From: Christiangramia lutea
GTDB taxonomy: Bacteria > Bacteroidota > Bacteroidia > Flavobacteriales > Flavobacteriaceae
NCBI RefSeq assembly: GCF_022489035.1
Contig: NZ_JAKVTV010000001.1
Location: 1,054,001 to 1,118,000, forward strand
Length of the DNA stretch: 64,000 nucleotides
Direction of reading: 5' to 3'
Part shown: piece after piece, positions 48,148 through 57,498 of the stretch
Numbering within the stretch: position 1 is the stretch's first letter
How the letters are laid out: each line of letters starts with the position of its first letter
Notes under the pieces: generated by a model
Database searches by the model: none
Seen by the model: only the letters and a program-made list of their open reading frames with translations
Told to the model about the DNA's origin: nothing
Position numbers and translations under genes: made by a program

Positions 48148-48834
48148 ATGAGAAAAAACCTCCTGTTTATTTGCCTGCTGGCCCTCTGTTCCTGTGATGA
48201 AGTTCTTATCGAGGAGAACCGCAGAATCGAAGTGAAGGGAACCCTTAGATCAGTAGAAAATGAACCGCTAACTGGTTTTAATATCTTCGCTGCAGGTAGC
48301 CGGAACGGCGATTTAAGTATGAATACAGATAAGATTTTAGGAAGAGGAACTTCAAATAATAATGGTTCATTTGAATTCATTTCTTTGGATACTTATTCTC
48401 ACGGTTTTGTACTTGCTATCAACCCTGTTGAAATTGAAAATTCTGAAAATCATGCTTCGGCTTATTTTTATGACGCGACGGGCGACCACTCCAGTAATTA
48501 TGACCTGGGGGAATTTAGGCTTCCGAGAAAAATAGACTTTCAATTGGACATCAGGAATGTCTCCGGTACTTCAGATACCCTAAGGTATGTAATGGATTTT
48601 CAAAGGCCGGTATTGAGGTATATCTATCAGAATGGAGGTTTCGTGGAGAATGATGAAGGGAACAACTATATTTCTATTCGGCAGCACACTTCTGAAAGCG
48701 ATCCTGTTTCTGTGAACCTTCAGCTATTAGAGGCCTCCGAATTCGAATTTGCCTACAGGATTGGGGACAGTCCGCTTCAGGAAGTTTCTATTTCTGTAGA
48801 TTCTGAAAATAACTCATATGAACTTGAATACTAA
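48148..48834 (+). CDS. Lipoprotein of unknown function
   Basis: 228 residues. A lipoprotein signal peptide has Cys16 in ALCSCD, with an unusual Cys at -2. IEVKGTLRSVENEPLTGFNI near 31-50 looks like a carboxypeptidase-regulatory-like beta-sandwich, followed by other beta-rich stretches (NNNGSFEFISLDTYSHGFVL). No enzyme motif is seen. It overlaps the next gene by 17 bases, so the two form a pair. Confidence 0.72.
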   Translation: MRKNLLFICLLALCSCDEVLIEENRRIEVKGTLRSVENEPLTGFNIFAAGSRNGDLSMNTDKILGRGTSNNNGSFEFISLDTYSHGFVLAINPVEIENSENHASAYFYDATGDHSSNYDLGEFRLPRKIDFQLDIRNVSGTSDTLRYVMDFQRPVLRYIYQNGGFVENDEGNNYISIRQHTSESDPVSVNLQLLEASEFEFAYRIGDSPLQEVSISVDSENNSYELEY

Positions 48835-49447
48835 ACTGGTTATCTTTCTTTTTTTATTCACGGGAATTCTTTCAGCTCAGGAAGAGGAAAAAATTAATGC
48901 AAATCAATATACTGAAGACCCCGAAACAGTCTTTTTTAATGTTGAACTATTCTACCCGGTAAGTATTGGCAATTCGGTATATTCAGAATATGATTTTGAT
49001 CCCGGCTATGCCATAGACTTTAACTGGTTTTTTAAACCGGAATTAACCCTGGGGGTAAGGTTCGCCGTTCATAGAGGTTACCCGAAAAATATTTCTGAAA
49101 CAGGAAATATAGATCGGGGCGCTTTTCATTTAATCGGAATCGATTTCGGGTACTATAAAGCCTTCAATAGAAAATGGAATTTGAGTTCCAGGTTGGGAAT
49201 CGGACTTAATTCAGCAGTCTATGTCGCTCCTGAAGATAAATTCAGCGAAGAGGGGGGAAAAGTATGGGTACATGCTGAGATCGCCCATAGATTAGATAAG
49301 ACGATAGCTTTCTTTTTCAAGACCGGGATAGATCATGACTTCTGGGATATTGAAACTTCTGACGCTAAAAATTCATATTTCAACAACCATTTCCTTTTAA
49401 ATGCAGGAATTGGTTTTCGTATAAACCTTCAGAATCCGGGAGGATAA
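48818..49447 (+). CDS. Exported beta-rich protein, probable outer-membrane barrel
   Basis: 209 residues. A signal peptide (1-21, ending LSAQ) precedes alternating aromatic and polar strands: FFNVELFYPVSIGNSVYSEY, FNWFFKPELTLGVRFAVHRG, GIDFGYYKAFNRKWNLSSRL and NHFLLNAGIGFRINL. That is the look of an OmpA- or OMP-beta-barrel fold. It overlaps the upstream lipoprotein gene by 17 bases, so the two may work together at the outer membrane. Its stop directly abuts the stop of the convergent thioesterase gene, with no hairpin between them. Confidence 0.7.
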   Translation: MNLNTKLVIFLFLFTGILSAQEEEKINANQYTEDPETVFFNVELFYPVSIGNSVYSEYDFDPGYAIDFNWFFKPELTLGVRFAVHRGYPKNISETGNIDRGAFHLIGIDFGYYKAFNRKWNLSSRLGIGLNSAVYVAPEDKFSEEGGKVWVHAEIAHRLDKTIAFFFKTGIDHDFWDIETSDAKNSYFNNHFLLNAGIGFRINLQNPGG

Positions 49448-53188: not shown

Positions 53189-53935
53189 ATGAGTATTATC
53201 AAATCTGCAGGAATTCTTTTATGGAGAATCTGGTTCTATATATTAATGGTTGTTCCTATCTTGATAATGCTCCCATTTCTTCTGATCTTTACTTCTTCTG
53301 AAAAATTTTATCCTCAATTCTTTATATGTGCTCGTATCTGGGCCAAAGTGATCATTTATGGTATGGGATTCCGGTTGAAAGTTGAAGCCGACGAGCTCCC
53401 TGAAATCCATAAAAGTTATATGCTGGTAGCCAATCATACTTCGATGATGGATATCATGCTTATGCTGGTAGTGATTAAACAGCCTTTCGTTTTTATAGGT
53501 AAAAAGGAATTGAGTAAAATTCCAGTTTTCGGATTTTTTTATAGAAGAACCTGTATTCTGGTAGATCGTAACAGGCAAAAAAGTAGGTTAGAAGCTTTTG
53601 AAGAAGCCCAGCGTAGATTGAAACAGGAAAATAGTATTTGTATTTTTCCCGAAGGAGGAGTGCCAGACGATAGATCTATTGTTCTGGATCCTTTCAAAGA
53701 TGGTGCTTTTAGATTAGCTATCGAACATCAAATCCCTATTGTACCCATCACCTTCCATGATAATAAAAAGCGTTTTTCCTATGAATTCTTTTCCGGTGGC
53801 CCGGGGAAATTAAGGGTGAAGATCCATAATTTTATCGATACAAAAGAGCTTGAATTAACTTGTAGGAAAGAATTGAAGGATCATACTTATGAAGTTATTC
53901 ACCAGGAACTGGTCTCGCCTACAGTTCAATATTAA
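53189..53935 (+). CDS. plsC: 1-acyl-sn-glycerol-3-phosphate acyltransferase (PlsC-like)
   Basis: 248 residues. One or two N-terminal membrane segments (about 10-32) precede the acyltransferase domain: the HX4D motif NHTSMMDI near 79-86, FVFIGKKELSKIPVFGFF near 95-112 and the FPEGGVPDD motif near 153-161. It makes phosphatidate from lysophosphatidate in the inner membrane; relatives that use ornithine- or glycine-linked lipids cannot be excluded. Its stop shares TTAA with the convergent barrel gene. Confidence 0.9.
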   Translation: MSIIKSAGILLWRIWFYILMVVPILIMLPFLLIFTSSEKFYPQFFICARIWAKVIIYGMGFRLKVEADELPEIHKSYMLVANHTSMMDIMLMLVVIKQPFVFIGKKELSKIPVFGFFYRRTCILVDRNRQKSRLEAFEEAQRRLKQENSICIFPEGGVPDDRSIVLDPFKDGAFRLAIEHQIPIVPITFHDNKKRFSYEFFSGGPGKLRVKIHNFIDTKELELTCRKELKDHTYEVIHQELVSPTVQY

Positions 53936-55368
53936 AACCTGAAATTTAATCCCGAGTAAACCCCGAAATTCACGGGTTGTACATTACTTACGCTATTAAA
54001 TGTATTCAGCTGATATTTGAAAATAGGCTCTACACTTATACTGAATTTCTTATTAAGATTGTAATCCATTCCAAGGCCGATATTGGTGCTGAAACTGGTA
54101 TTATTAATATTCGAAGCTTCTCCCAGGTTGGTTCTGCCTTCCTCAGAAATAAGTTCTACCCGGTTGTTGTCCAGGAATAAACTACTTCCACCTCCAATAA
54201 TATTCAGGCCGAATTTTTTGTCAATAATAGCAAATTCAACTTCCACGGGTATTTCAATATAGCCGAATTGCTGGTTGAGTTCACCGGGTACGAAAATCGA
54301 TGATGAAACAGAGCTGCTAAAATTCATTCCTGAAGGAAGATCACCTTCGGTAGGCGTGTTATCCCTGATGCTTAGATTCCCTGCCTCCGGGCCTATATTT
54401 TCGAACCCTGCAGCCATTGCAGATGGGGAATAGGAAATGTTTTCAATGTTGTTGCTGATATTCACCTTGCTGATACCTGTTCTTATCCTTAATTTTTTCG
54501 ATACCTGATAAGCTACCTTAAAACCGTAGGAGAAGGTAACCTCGGATGATGAATTATTATTGGAAAACTGGTTAGAAAGTTCATTTCCACTTCCAATATT
54601 CCTATAAAAGATAGGTGCAGCAAAGGTGGACAGACTTAACCTACCTGTGTTCAATTCCTCTACATTTTCCTCAGCTTCTTCAGATTTCTTTTTTTCTTCT
54701 TCAACTTCCGCCAAAGCATTTTCTTCCTCAAGAATCGACTTTGTTTTCGTAGGATCGATTAATGTTTCCTTGTTTTGTACAATTTCACCGGAAGGTTTTA
54801 CTTCAATTCCTTCCGGTTTAATTGCACTCTTCTCCTTTTCATAAATCGTTTCGGAAGAATCTGTGTCTTCCATTGCAAAAGCTGCATTCTTTTTCTTTTG
54901 ATTGTCTGTTGAAAAGTCTTTTCTAGTTGGAGTATTGACAGATCTTGAAGAATTATTACTGCTGTTCTGTGAGTGAGCTTGGTTACTGGAATTTTCTGAT
55001 GAGTAATCTTCCTTAAATTCCTGGTCTTCAAAAGCGACCCCTTCTTCAGATGTATTATTATTTATTGAATTTTCCTGATTTGGATTAATAGGTTCTTCTT
55101 TTTCAGCATTATCCTCATTTTCAAAAACAACTCCTGGTTCTGAAGGATTAGAATTGTTGTTATTAGTGAATAACAGGCTGGCGAAAACTAGAGCAATAAC
55201 TGCGGCCACACCACCAAGCTTGAACCATAATGGAATAATGATTGGTTCCTTTTTATCCTTTTTATCAAGTTTCGCAGAAATATTTTCCCAAACCCTTTCA
55301 TTGGGTTCTCTTTCAAAATCCTTGAATTTCTCCTGATAAATCCGGTCTATGTTCTTTTTTTCTTTCAT
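53932..55368 (-). CDS. Anti-sigma-like protein with one membrane helix and a C-terminal beta-barrel
   Basis: 478 residues. A charged cytoplasmic-looking N-terminus (IDRIYQEKFKDFEREPNERV, then WENISAKL) precedes one transmembrane helix (about 47-66, WFKLGGVAAVIALVFASLLF). A long low-complexity linker rich in Asn, Ser, Glu and Lys follows (about 68-245). Residues about 246-478 show the strand pattern of an outer-membrane barrel with a terminal Phe (FGVYSGLNFRF). It overlaps the ECF sigma gene by 4 bases, so it is probably its regulator. Whether the barrel lies in the outer membrane, making the protein span both membranes, is inference. Confidence 0.75.
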   Translation of the reverse strand: MKEKKNIDRIYQEKFKDFEREPNERVWENISAKLDKKDKKEPIIIPLWFKLGGVAAVIALVFASLLFTNNNNSNPSEPGVVFENEDNAEKEEPINPNQENSINNNTSEEGVAFEDQEFKEDYSSENSSNQAHSQNSSNNSSRSVNTPTRKDFSTDNQKKKNAAFAMEDTDSSETIYEKEKSAIKPEGIEVKPSGEIVQNKETLIDPTKTKSILEEENALAEVEEEKKKSEEAEENVEELNTGRLSLSTFAAPIFYRNIGSGNELSNQFSNNNSSSEVTFSYGFKVAYQVSKKLRIRTGISKVNISNNIENISYSPSAMAAGFENIGPEAGNLSIRDNTPTEGDLPSGMNFSSSVSSSIFVPGELNQQFGYIEIPVEVEFAIIDKKFGLNIIGGGSSLFLDNNRVELISEEGRTNLGEASNINNTSFSTNIGLGMDYNLNKKFSISVEPIFKYQLNTFNSVSNVQPVNFGVYSGLNFRF

Positions 55369-55913
55369 GACGATTGAGCCGAATTTTGAATATTCTGTCC
55401 TTTTTCAATCTTCTCCTTTAAGGCCTTTCTTGCCCTCGCGAGATTAGATTTCGAAGTTCCTTCTGAAATATTGAGGAACTCCGCTATTTCCTTATGTGAG
55501 TAATCATCCATTACATATAGATTGAACACCTGCCTGTATCTGGATGGGAGACTTTGTACGCATTCGAGCAGAAAATCAACCGATAGATCCTCGGTTTCTA
55601 TTTCTACTTCTTCCTGTTCTAATTGGTCTTCATTCGAGATCTCGTACACCTTTTGCTTTCTGTATTTTTGCAAACAGGTATTTATGAGTATCCTTTTCAT
55701 CCAGCCTTCGAAAGATCCCTGGTCTTTGAATTGGTAGATTTTTTCAAAAATGGTTAAGAATCCATCCTGAAGATTATCTTCAGCCTGCTGATAATTATCG
55801 GAATATTTAAGGCAAACACCGAACAGCTTCGACGCATAGATGCGATAAAGCTGTTCCTGCGCTTTTCTATCCTGTTTTTTGCAGTTTTGAATAAGATGCT
55901 TGATCTTAACCAA
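55365..55913 (-). CDS. ECF RNA polymerase sigma factor (sigma-70 family)
   Basis: 182 residues. Region 2 covers about 10-80 (YASKLFGVCLKYSDNYQQAE and LQDGFLTIFEKI), with FEGWMKRILINTCLQKYRK following. Region 4 covers about 115-170, including a helix-turn-helix in DDYSHKEIAEFLNISEGTSK and SNLARARKAL. It directs transcription at an unknown regulon. The 4-base overlap with the downstream barrel/anti-sigma-like gene suggests that the pair is a signalling unit. Autoregulation is likely for the class but was not seen. Confidence 0.93.
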   Translation of the reverse strand: MVKIKHLIQNCKKQDRKAQEQLYRIYASKLFGVCLKYSDNYQQAEDNLQDGFLTIFEKIYQFKDQGSFEGWMKRILINTCLQKYRKQKVYEISNEDQLEQEEVEIETEDLSVDFLLECVQSLPSRYRQVFNLYVMDDYSHKEIAEFLNISEGTSKSNLARARKALKEKIEKGQNIQNSAQSS

Positions 55914-55931: not shown

Positions 55932-56393
55932 TTATCCAGCAGGTGTTATATCTGGTTCACCAACGGGTATCTCAATAGTTTCGAAAATTGGGTTGTCTGC
56001 ACTATCAGTACCTGTCCAAAGTTTAAAAATAAAAACTTCATCTTCTGAAACATTTTCACTTACAATGAAATTTCTAATCATTCCAGACTGAATCAAATTG
56101 AGATCCTCTGAAGTACAATCGGTTAAATCCAGATCTCTGGAAGTTAGAGCGTAAATAAAGATCTCCTGGGAAGTTTCATCTTCACGGCCACCATCAAAAC
56201 CGAAGAACGTATGGCAGGTGCTAGGTAACCTGTAAGTTAAACTAATATCATAACTTTTCCCTGGCTCGAAATATGCCGGAAACTCCGAATTAATAATTGA
56301 GGCCAATCCATATTCAATGTTTGGTGAATCATCCTCTGTAGAACAACTTGTTAAAAACAGCCCTAGCAAGGCAAATAACATTAACTTTTTCAT
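55932..56393 (-). CDS. Lipoprotein of unknown function, next to the ECF sigma factor gene
   Basis: 153 residues with a lipoprotein signal peptide; Cys17 is in FLTSCST. The mature part is a beta-rich soluble domain (YEPGKSYDISLTYRLPS-like, with CHTFFGFDGG near 60-69) ending in VGEPDITPAG. It has two further cysteines that could pair. No family is recognised. It lies 18 bases before the sigma factor gene on the same strand, so it may share its transcript and could belong to the same envelope signalling unit. Confidence 0.72.
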   Translation of the reverse strand: MKKLMLFALLGLFLTSCSTEDDSPNIEYGLASIINSEFPAYFEPGKSYDISLTYRLPSTCHTFFGFDGGREDETSQEIFIYALTSRDLDLTDCTSEDLNLIQSGMIRNFIVSENVSEDEVFIFKLWTGTDSADNPIFETIEIPVGEPDITPAG

Positions 56394-56453
56394 TTTTCTT
56401 TTATTTGTTTTCTACTTCATAGATGAATAAAAACTGAAAAGGTTGCGTTGAGA

Positions 56454-56480
56454 TCAAAAAAAATCCCCTTTCGGGGATGT
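56454..56480 (-). terminator. Terminator after recA
   Basis: ATCCCC (56463-56468) pairs with GGGGAT (56473-56478) around TTTC. On the minus strand it is followed by a run of eight T, right after the recA stop. Confidence 0.9.
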
Positions 56481-56484
56481 TTTT

Positions 56485-57498
56485 TTATTCTTTAGCAATT
56501 TTGATCGCGTTTTTGATCTTTTCTTCCAGTTCCTCCATAAGGTCCGGATTGTCTTTTAATAAGGTTTTAACCGCATCACGGCCCTGGCCTAATTTAGTGT
56601 CTTCATAGCTAAACCACGAACCGCTTTTCTTTACGATCTCATAATCCACTCCTATATCGATGATCTCTCCGATCTTGGAAACTCCCTCTCCATACATGAT
56701 ATCGAATTCGGCAGTTTTAAAAGGTGGGGCTACTTTATTTTTCACCACTTTAACCCTGGTCTTATTACCCATTACGTTGTTAGAGCTATCCTTGATCTGG
56801 GTAGATCTTCTAATATCTAACCTAACTGATGCGTAGAATTTAAGGGCGTTACCACCAGTAGTGGTTTCAGGGTTTCCAAACATAACCCCGATCTTTTCCC
56901 TTAACTGATTAATGAAAATCACCGTACAGTTGGTTTTACTTATAGAAGAAGTAAGTTTTCTTAGAGCTTGCGACATTAATCTTGCGTGAAGTCCCATTTT
57001 GGAATCTCCCATTTCTCCTTCGATCTCACTTTTTGGAGTTAAAGCAGCTACCGAGTCAATTACGATTATATCAATAGCGCCAGATCTAATAAGATTATCG
57101 GCGATTTCAAGAGCCTGCTCCCCGTTATCTGGCTGTGAAATGATTAGGTTATCAATATCTACATCCAGTTTTTCAGCATAGAACCTATCAAAAGCATGTT
57201 CTGCATCAATAAAAGCAGCAATTCCTCCTTTTTTCTGAGCTTCAGCTATAGCATGAAGGGTTAGGGTGGTTTTACCGGAAGATTCAGGACCATAGATCTC
57301 AATCACTCGTCCTCTTGGATAACCTCCCACGCCAAGTGCAAGGTCAAGACCCAGGGAACCAGTGGAAATAGAATCTACATCAACTACCACCTGGTCGCTC
57401 ATCTTCATAACCGTACCTTTTCCGTAGGTTTTGTCCATCTTATCGAGGGTGAGCTTAAGTGCCTTTAACTTCGCTTCTTTTTCTTTATCGTTGCTCAT
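56485..57498 (-). CDS. recA: Recombinase RecA
   Basis: DNA strand-exchange and SOS co-protease of 337 residues. Walker A is [14 protein letters not shown] near 69-82; [20 protein letters not shown] near 137-156 includes Walker [21 protein letters not shown] near 196-215 covers loop 2, and GKGTVMKMS lies near the start. Normal length. The upstream gap (57499-57696) is shared with the divergent trhO gene and holds a perfect 24-bp palindrome. A terminator follows. Confidence 0.98.

Follow-up and report, generated by a model that had tools for sequence, protein, structure and literature searches.

A gene cluster of Christiangramia lutea raises the question of how a sigma factor held in the cytoplasm could be controlled from the outer membrane, and which genes it would switch on once released. 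The cluster lies in a 64,000-nucleotide stretch of a 3.47 Mb genome (contig NZ_JAKVTV010000001.1, positions 1,054,001 to 1,118,000), referred to here as the window. On the minus strand, 3' of recA (56485-57498), a lipoprotein gene is followed by the gene of an extracytoplasmic function (ECF) sigma factor and then by the gene of a 478-residue anti-sigma protein. The initial annotation had suggested that the latter, should its barrel insert in the outer membrane, could sense there and hold the sigma factor at the inner membrane without the usual three-part relay. We consider it probable (roughly 80%) that a Dma/Reo-type two-membrane anti-sigma protein, the ECF sigma factor and the lipoprotein form one autoregulated operon behind recA, whose sigma factor is released upon stress and reads promoters of the type ACGCAACC-N15-CATCT. 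The direct support for this reading comes from the gene order, the protein architecture, the predicted barrel fold, the kinship to Dma/Reo-type systems, the conserved promoter and the lipoprotein genes located downstream of it.

A conserved operon behind recA

The anti-sigma gene (53932-55368, minus strand) was recognised as an open reading frame (ORF) and supported by conservation, Pfam matches, a predicted structure and profile comparison. As first described, it overlaps the sigma gene (55365-55913, minus strand), and the overlap amounts to 4 nt. The sigma factor itself (182 aa, TTG start) was assigned from its ORF, Pfam/NCBIfam models and comparisons with other sigma factors. The sigma gene lay directly upstream of the anti-sigma gene in 30/30 loci of one set and in 79/80 of another, the lone exception (L090) being a sequence cut off at its upstream end. 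The latter set comprised the best 80 of 499 confirmed loci, chosen by likeness to the window anti-sigma protein, and the two sets overlap in some species, with at least four species common to both collections. The initial annotation left out both the lipoprotein gene (55932-56393, minus strand) and the promoter in front of it (56421-56448, minus strand). A gene of the same lipoprotein family was located upstream of the sigma gene in 70 of the 80 loci. The window anti-sigma protein was matched in 37 of 59 related genomes, and its profile matched 61 of the 296 genomes of a phylum sample, many of those outside the family via the N-terminal part only. Judged by gene order, the lipoprotein, sigma and anti-sigma genes are a conserved operon of Flavobacteriaceae.

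Architecture and predicted fold of the anti-sigma protein

The layout read from the single chain by the initial annotation stood up in each of its parts. The charged N-terminal segment (residues 1-46; 55231-55368), which carries the WENI sequence at residues 27-30, is conserved and contains two predicted helices; it is presumed to be cytoplasmic and sigma-binding. It is followed by one predicted inner-membrane helix at about residues 47-67 (55168-55230), assigned from the predicted structure and from a charge pattern with N-in/C-out signs: in 79 of 81 aligned proteins (window protein included), the residues ahead of the helix carry a higher net charge than those behind it. The linker, put earlier at about 175 residues, corresponds to a tether of about 170 (residues 68-237; 54658-55167), variable in the alignment, predicted with low confidence and rich in Glu (20%), Asn (14%) and Ser (12%, residues 68-238). 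Its length in the 81 proteins averaged 194 residues and ranged from 120 to 267. A charged helix supported by alignment and predicted structure (residues 216-232; 54673-54723) precedes the C-terminal domain (residues 238-478; 53935-54657), which Pfam, predicted structure and fold matches assign to the outer-membrane-type β-barrels and which ends in Phe, as do 80 of the 81 proteins.

Conservation followed these boundaries. Among 28 aligned proteins, the first ~60 and the last ~235 residues aligned well and the middle did not. In the 81-protein alignment, the majority residue had a mean frequency of 0.68 over residues 1-46, 0.58 over the helix, 0.25 over residues 68-215 and 0.57 over residues 244-478. 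Because the N-terminus and the barrel are conserved while the tether is not, the frame is not a chance ORF. No FecR domain was listed for the protein in Pfam and NCBIfam scans with E values up to 1, and a sequence search of solved structures with the protein as query gave no match.

The structure was modelled with AlphaFold2 on the 81 aligned sequences, with a mean predicted local distance difference test (pLDDT) score of 70.8. Block means reached 84-97 over most of residues 241-478, with a weaker loop (311-360, 59-86) and a value of 79 at the end, as compared with ~41-66 for the tether. Strands were predicted at residues 244-257, 278-288, 293-315, 360-383, 386-408, 411-437 (with a break), 442-454 and 465-477, a pattern consistent with an eight-stranded barrel. 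The fold comparison aligned it with NspA (VIA Z 18.2, 2.9 Å over 154), OprF (VIA Z 17.5, 2.0 Å over 132), OmpW (Z 16.8) and OmpA (entry 1qjp, VIA Z 16.3, 2.4 Å over 133); several OmpA entries scored 16-18, with nuclear magnetic resonance models at 12. Foldseek likewise matched the barrel to OmpA (E 1.3e-7). In the Pfam scans, 27 of the 28 proteins matched OMP_b-brl with an E value of 0.01 or lower, and the window protein's own score (24.2) lay below the curated cut-off of 28.7.

A C-terminal domain forming a soluble periplasmic barrel would break the proposed link to the outer membrane. Photosystem II chain O, BcnB and a polyisoprenoid-binding protein did appear in the fold list, from rank 35 down and with Z of ~10-11. 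Photosystem II chain O proteins are soluble. All rows above rank 35 were barrels of the outer membrane or membrane barrels made by design, with Z 16-18 for the first 14. Since integral outer-membrane proteins head the list of structural matches and OMP_b-brl is matched almost throughout the aligned proteins, a soluble barrel is very unlikely, and the near-invariant terminal Phe points the same way. Together with the kinship described below, the structure prediction supports the earlier proposal of a two-membrane anti-sigma protein with an outer-membrane-type barrel. As modelled, the protein probably sits in both membranes at once and retains the sigma factor until a disturbance reaches the outer surface.

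Relationship to the Dma/Reo systems

A barrel-ended anti-sigma protein was in print by 2022 (PMC9308784), and, according to later papers, the class was named Dma in 2024. In the Dma2 study, a sigma-binding domain at the N-terminus is described as joined through a helix and a long disordered tether to a barrel at the C-terminus; the protein adjoins an ECF21 sigma gene and is restricted to Bacteroidota (PMC13088901). The window protein shows the same four-part layout and likewise has an adjacent sigma gene; to Dma1 it is likened by the description given in later papers. Reo, of the EcfO-Reo pair of Bacteroides fragilis and Phocaeicola vulgatus, spans all five compartments (PMC13114119), from the cytoplasm to the surface, as we propose for the window protein. 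The protein thus belongs to the published Dma/Reo class of anti-sigma proteins, and the design itself is not new. The class has so far been studied in a few gut Bacteroidales, where its output has been described via nigD genes, vesicles and polysaccharide loci. What the present locus adds, as the sequence comparisons suggest, is a conserved promoter and a lipoprotein regulon in the window genus. The system also resembles signalling by TonB-dependent transducers and FecR, in which a signal from the outer membrane is passed to an ECF sigma factor, yet it has no listed FecR domain and no receptor gene in the operon, so that one protein would replace the relay.

The kinship was examined in a comparison family (f25, presumed to be Bacteroidaceae). 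A NigD_C search matched 5 of the 296 genomes, and six NigD places were taken from two of these. In two of the six (L150 and L151), NigD adjoined a sigma gene and a Dma-type gene, which matched the window-family profiles with E values of 3e-43 and 6e-46 for the sigma factor and 8e-9 and 2e-5 for Dma. In each of four f25 genomes, holding 17-23 sigma matches each, the best match of the window sigma factor was the one beside a Dma-type gene with a NigD-type gene adjoining. A profile-profile comparison with 17 f25 Dma-type proteins gave E 3.9e-18 over the barrel, and the Dma-type query matched 37 of 61 f25 genomes. Within flanks of 1.5 kb, a neighbour matched the NigD model (E < 1e-3) in 13 of 30 f25 loci. 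The model was built from six NigD proteins, two of which come from L156 and L157 themselves, so that the matches in these two loci arose by construction. Another of the 13, the neighbour upstream of the sigma-Dma pair in L171 (273-896), had been considered NigD-like and was rejected as DUF4840. The sigma factor and the barrel were found in one frame in 4 of the 30 loci (L182-L185, by sigma-model and barrel matches); in L182, the one fusion checked with Pfam, both parts were confirmed. This arrangement is that of Dma3, which combines the same modules in one chain, whereas the window sigma factor is encoded by a separate, overlapping gene. In a tree of 55 sigma factors, the Dma-linked and fused forms, two unlabelled rows and three paralogues from the window genome fell into a single supported set (39 members; 99/95), with the other 16 outside it.

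One of these paralogous loci (L111, C26:126205-129762) bears on whether the barrel has a signalling role at all. It encodes a related sigma factor, a barrel-less anti-sigma protein with a related N-terminal segment and then, as a separate gene, a secreted-looking 347-aa protein in which Pfam found no match; it may represent an unfused form of the anti-sigma system. Because the L111 anti-sigma protein lacks a barrel and the third gene stands apart, fused and unfused forms coexist in one genome, and a related sigma factor can be held without fusion. The barrel of the window protein might accordingly be a mere anchor, with signalling by ordinary regulated proteolysis of the tether in the periplasm, or the chain might be cleaved in two in its mature form. 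We consider this quite unlikely, as the barrel is conserved almost to the degree of the N-terminal segment (0.57 versus 0.68). The fused form is also intact in the 80 loci, an argument of little weight because these loci were chosen by likeness to the fused protein.

A conserved ECF-type promoter in front of the operon

Out-of-frame extensions of the lipoprotein ORF read alike in several loci, which led to the recognition of a conserved DNA element. In the window, ACGCAACC-N15-CATCT occurs as a single exact match (56421-56448), and the lipoprotein ATG starts 28 nt past its last base. Of 97 upstream regions, 81 contained the element exactly, 14 with one mismatch and 1 with two, at least four species being counted twice in this set. 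The remaining region (L022) is cut off, and its site was recovered in the genus site scan instead. A slightly wider pattern gave 90 matches, 89 of them with a spacer of 15. In the loci with a sigma gene and no recognised lipoprotein, the element was found upstream of the sigma gene in 9/9 (two mismatches at most). Because an AACC-type -35 box, a fixed spacer and a CATCT -10 box at the sigma factor's own operon fit established ECF practice in layout and position, we infer an autoregulated ECF promoter. A sigma-70 promoter scan gave 1 match versus 7.3 in shuffled sequences. The background of the element estimated from random pieces was contaminated, as the pieces included the true site, and the 42 exact sites found outside the upstream region do not give a chance background either, because most of them represent a second conserved site ~1.1-1.5 kb away, on the other strand and across recA.

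The sites could also be read by another regulator or by a paralogous ECF sigma factor. A related sigma gene of the window genome, on C26 (L191), has a similar upstream element, GGCAACC-N16-CGTCTA, which by eye differs in its -10 box (CGTCT) and its spacer of 16. An ECF motif with a CGT box, differing from CATCT, has been described at other genes in a transcription-start map of F. psychrophilum (PMC9723704). The almost invariable position of the element at the head of this operon, with or without the lipoprotein gene, argues against a foreign reader, as does its co-occurrence with the anti-sigma gene: where the two scans overlapped, sites were present in 14/14 genomes with a strong Dma match and in one of three genomes without such a match (0, 3 and 0 sites). 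We therefore regard reading by another factor as improbable.

The predicted lipoprotein regulon

A sharply defined predicted promoter turns the question of what the system controls into a list of genes. The window genome contains five exact sites, all of which precede genes that read as lipoproteins, including an LVIVD β-propeller and a von Willebrand A-domain protein. One of the five (L238) lies 193 nt from its ATG, and two fall outside the narrower pattern that was used to search 24 genomes of the genus, the window genome included. This search returned 109 sites versus 1 in the reversed control. Examination of 107 of them, the other two being sites already seen in the window genome, left 105 distinct sites after removal of two repeats. 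A lipoprotein gene followed in 103 of the 105 cases (102 called by rule and L303 by eye), as compared with a background of 13 out of 645 ORFs called by the same rule. The two exceptions were L250, a 204-residue protein with a signal peptide, and L339, probably a chance site. Members of the operon lipoprotein's family accounted for 38 of the 105 sites. The other 67 sites included 64 rule-called lipoproteins, 56 of whose genes start 15-40 nt past the site, and the lipoproteins found there fell into 13 groups (BLAST, 1e-4).

Acidic stretches after the lipid-bearing cysteine are surface-export signals in Flavobacteriia. At least two acidic residues at positions +2 to +6 were found in 81 of the 102 rule-called lipoproteins, versus 7 of the 21 frames that the rule called in the background, a large share of them spurious. 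The operon lipoprotein (153 aa; ORF, family, predicted structure) carries its lipobox Cys at position 17, followed by STEDD. Across the family, at least one site was present in 98 of 120 genomes, with four control sites in all. Reading sites by eye, we recognised no genes for sugar uptake among them. We found no published account of such a promoter and lipoprotein regulon in Flavobacteriaceae in the open-licence literature, supplements excluded.

Site positions thus suggest that the sigma factor probably drives a lipoprotein regulon, paralleling the control by EcfO of nigD surface lipoproteins, which depend on this sigma factor (PMC13114119, PMC9308784). The EcfO-Reo regulon includes nigD lipoproteins, whereas the sites of the window genus stand at lipoproteins of other families. 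In P. vulgatus, active EcfO also lengthens the O-antigen of the lipopolysaccharide, whereas the sites of the window genus lie almost only at lipoprotein genes. An initial try at deleting the anti-sigma gene of P. vulgatus was unsuccessful.

The operon lipoprotein itself was considered as a NigD protein. Sequence tests failed: no Pfam NigD match was listed for any of 18 members of its family, a NigD_C search of the window genome gave no match, and profile comparison with NigD aligned the signal peptide only. Its predicted structure, a seven-stranded β-sandwich (mean pLDDT 88.3), resembled 3k0y (Z 6.2) and 3qwn (Z 5.8), both within the top three fold rows but with Z < 8. The NigD profile did not match 5bmt and 3nqi, two other entries that ranked high. 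This likeness in fold is weak, and the assignment was rejected on sequence.

A possible route from the outer membrane to the lipoprotein genes

By analogy with the Dma/Reo family, the N-terminus would hold the sigma factor in the cytoplasm, the helix would anchor the chain in the inner membrane, the disordered tether would span the periplasm and the barrel would sit in the outer membrane, so that the chain would form a physical link from the outer membrane to the sigma factor. Upon failure of outer-membrane assembly or integrity, the barrel would stop protecting the chain, periplasmic proteolysis would probably start and the sigma factor would be released. It would then read the ACGCAACC-N15-CATCT promoters, raise the expression of its own operon and switch on a small regulon which, in the window genus, would consist almost only of lipoproteins. 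Within this scheme, we infer the binding of the sigma factor, the insertion of the barrel, the stress signal, the proteolytic release and the use of the promoter by this sigma factor rather than a paralogue.

Several results weigh against the reading of the locus as a whole. The N-terminal segment and the membrane helix were predicted with only modest confidence (block-mean pLDDT 57-79, with ~57-66 for the helix). The similarity to the f25 proteins is firm for the barrel only, and the barrel alone is a widespread fold. The Dma-linked sigma factors did not form one clade (four label changes, three of them forced, to which the unlabelled L197 and L198 may add), and the three paralogues from the window genome that share their supported set are accompanied by barrel-less anti-sigma proteins. 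Allowing one mismatch, a scan of the window genome performed no better than its control (7 versus 5). Outside the genus, 73 sites from part of the 120 genomes preceded 31 lipoproteins called by rule, 5 signal-peptide-like proteins and 18 others, with no ORF in 19 cases; the non-lipoprotein sites included five at which the rule reached the sigma gene itself, five at the genes with a VTGANGQLG-type start described below and five at a rhodanese-like gene beyond recA. Finally, a lipoprotein gene within the window (48148-48834, plus strand), by eye an apparent orthologue of a regulon member of the genus, lacks the element, its best match having six mismatches.

As to the signal, published inducers of the ecfO-reo pair are BcpT and Bd-A, the latter an inhibitor of BamA (PMC13114119, PMC9308784). 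Such induction fits with a barrel that signals failed assembly or damage to the outer membrane. We tentatively propose, at somewhat less than even odds, an outer-membrane alarm of Flavobacteriaceae, in which the barrel would be a client of the β-barrel assembly machinery (BAM), and its failed assembly would lead to its destruction and free the sigma factor to act mainly on surface lipoproteins. Alternatively, the barrel could serve as the receptor of some external ligand, for example a glycan, and not as a sentinel of assembly. The authors of the Dma2 study hypothesise that Dma2 senses a surface glycan and regulates polysaccharide loci (PMC13088901), and residues 316-359 of the window protein form a long variable stretch between barrel strands. 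Against a ligand receptor stand the response of ecfO-reo to antibacterial toxins acting on the envelope and the make-up of the predicted regulon, with lipoproteins of many groups and, by eye among the sites read, no recognised sugar-uptake genes; we regard such a role as unlikely.

The alarm model, if true, would make lipoprotein output a common theme of the Dma/Reo systems across Bacteroidota. It would also explain an observation in Flavobacterium johnsoniae: when TamL was depleted, 31 of 47 outer-membrane lipoproteins increased, and a stress response seemed plausible to the authors (PMC12045153). Because the site list of the window genus consists of lipoproteins nearly throughout, the sigma factor is a candidate regulator behind this rise, a link that we draw ourselves. 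When BAM subunits were depleted in F. johnsoniae, many barrel proteins decreased, as did some surface lipoproteins, without the same rise of lipoproteins, which counts against this link (PMC12611786).

Additional observations

Several features were noted beside the operon and its promoter. A terminator-like hairpin (56463-56478, minus strand), identified by pattern match only, lies between recA and the operon. By eye for AACC, no counterpart of the window promoter was seen in 10 f25 intergenic regions; TACTGCA/GCAGTA elements were noticed by eye upstream of the f25 sigma gene in L151, L158, L159, L165, L166, L170 and L172 and are perhaps counterpart promoters. On the plus strand of the window, the lipoprotein gene at 48148-48834 is followed by a gene (48818-49447) whose product has a weak outer-membrane-barrel match. 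In five genomes outside the genus (L358, L381, L400, L404 and L405), sites stood just 5' of a gene with a VTGANGQLG-type start, which resembles that of a dTDP-sugar reductase. The second ACGCAACC-N15-CATCT site across recA was present in many Flavobacteriaceae outside the genus, ~1.2 kb upstream of the lipoprotein start. Behind it, an apparent 30-residue peptide ending in (D/E)GG was read in 8 of 13 loci (L041, L042, L044, L048, L055, L065, L072 and L081), and in seven of these eight the ending was C-(K/R)-x-(D/E)GG.

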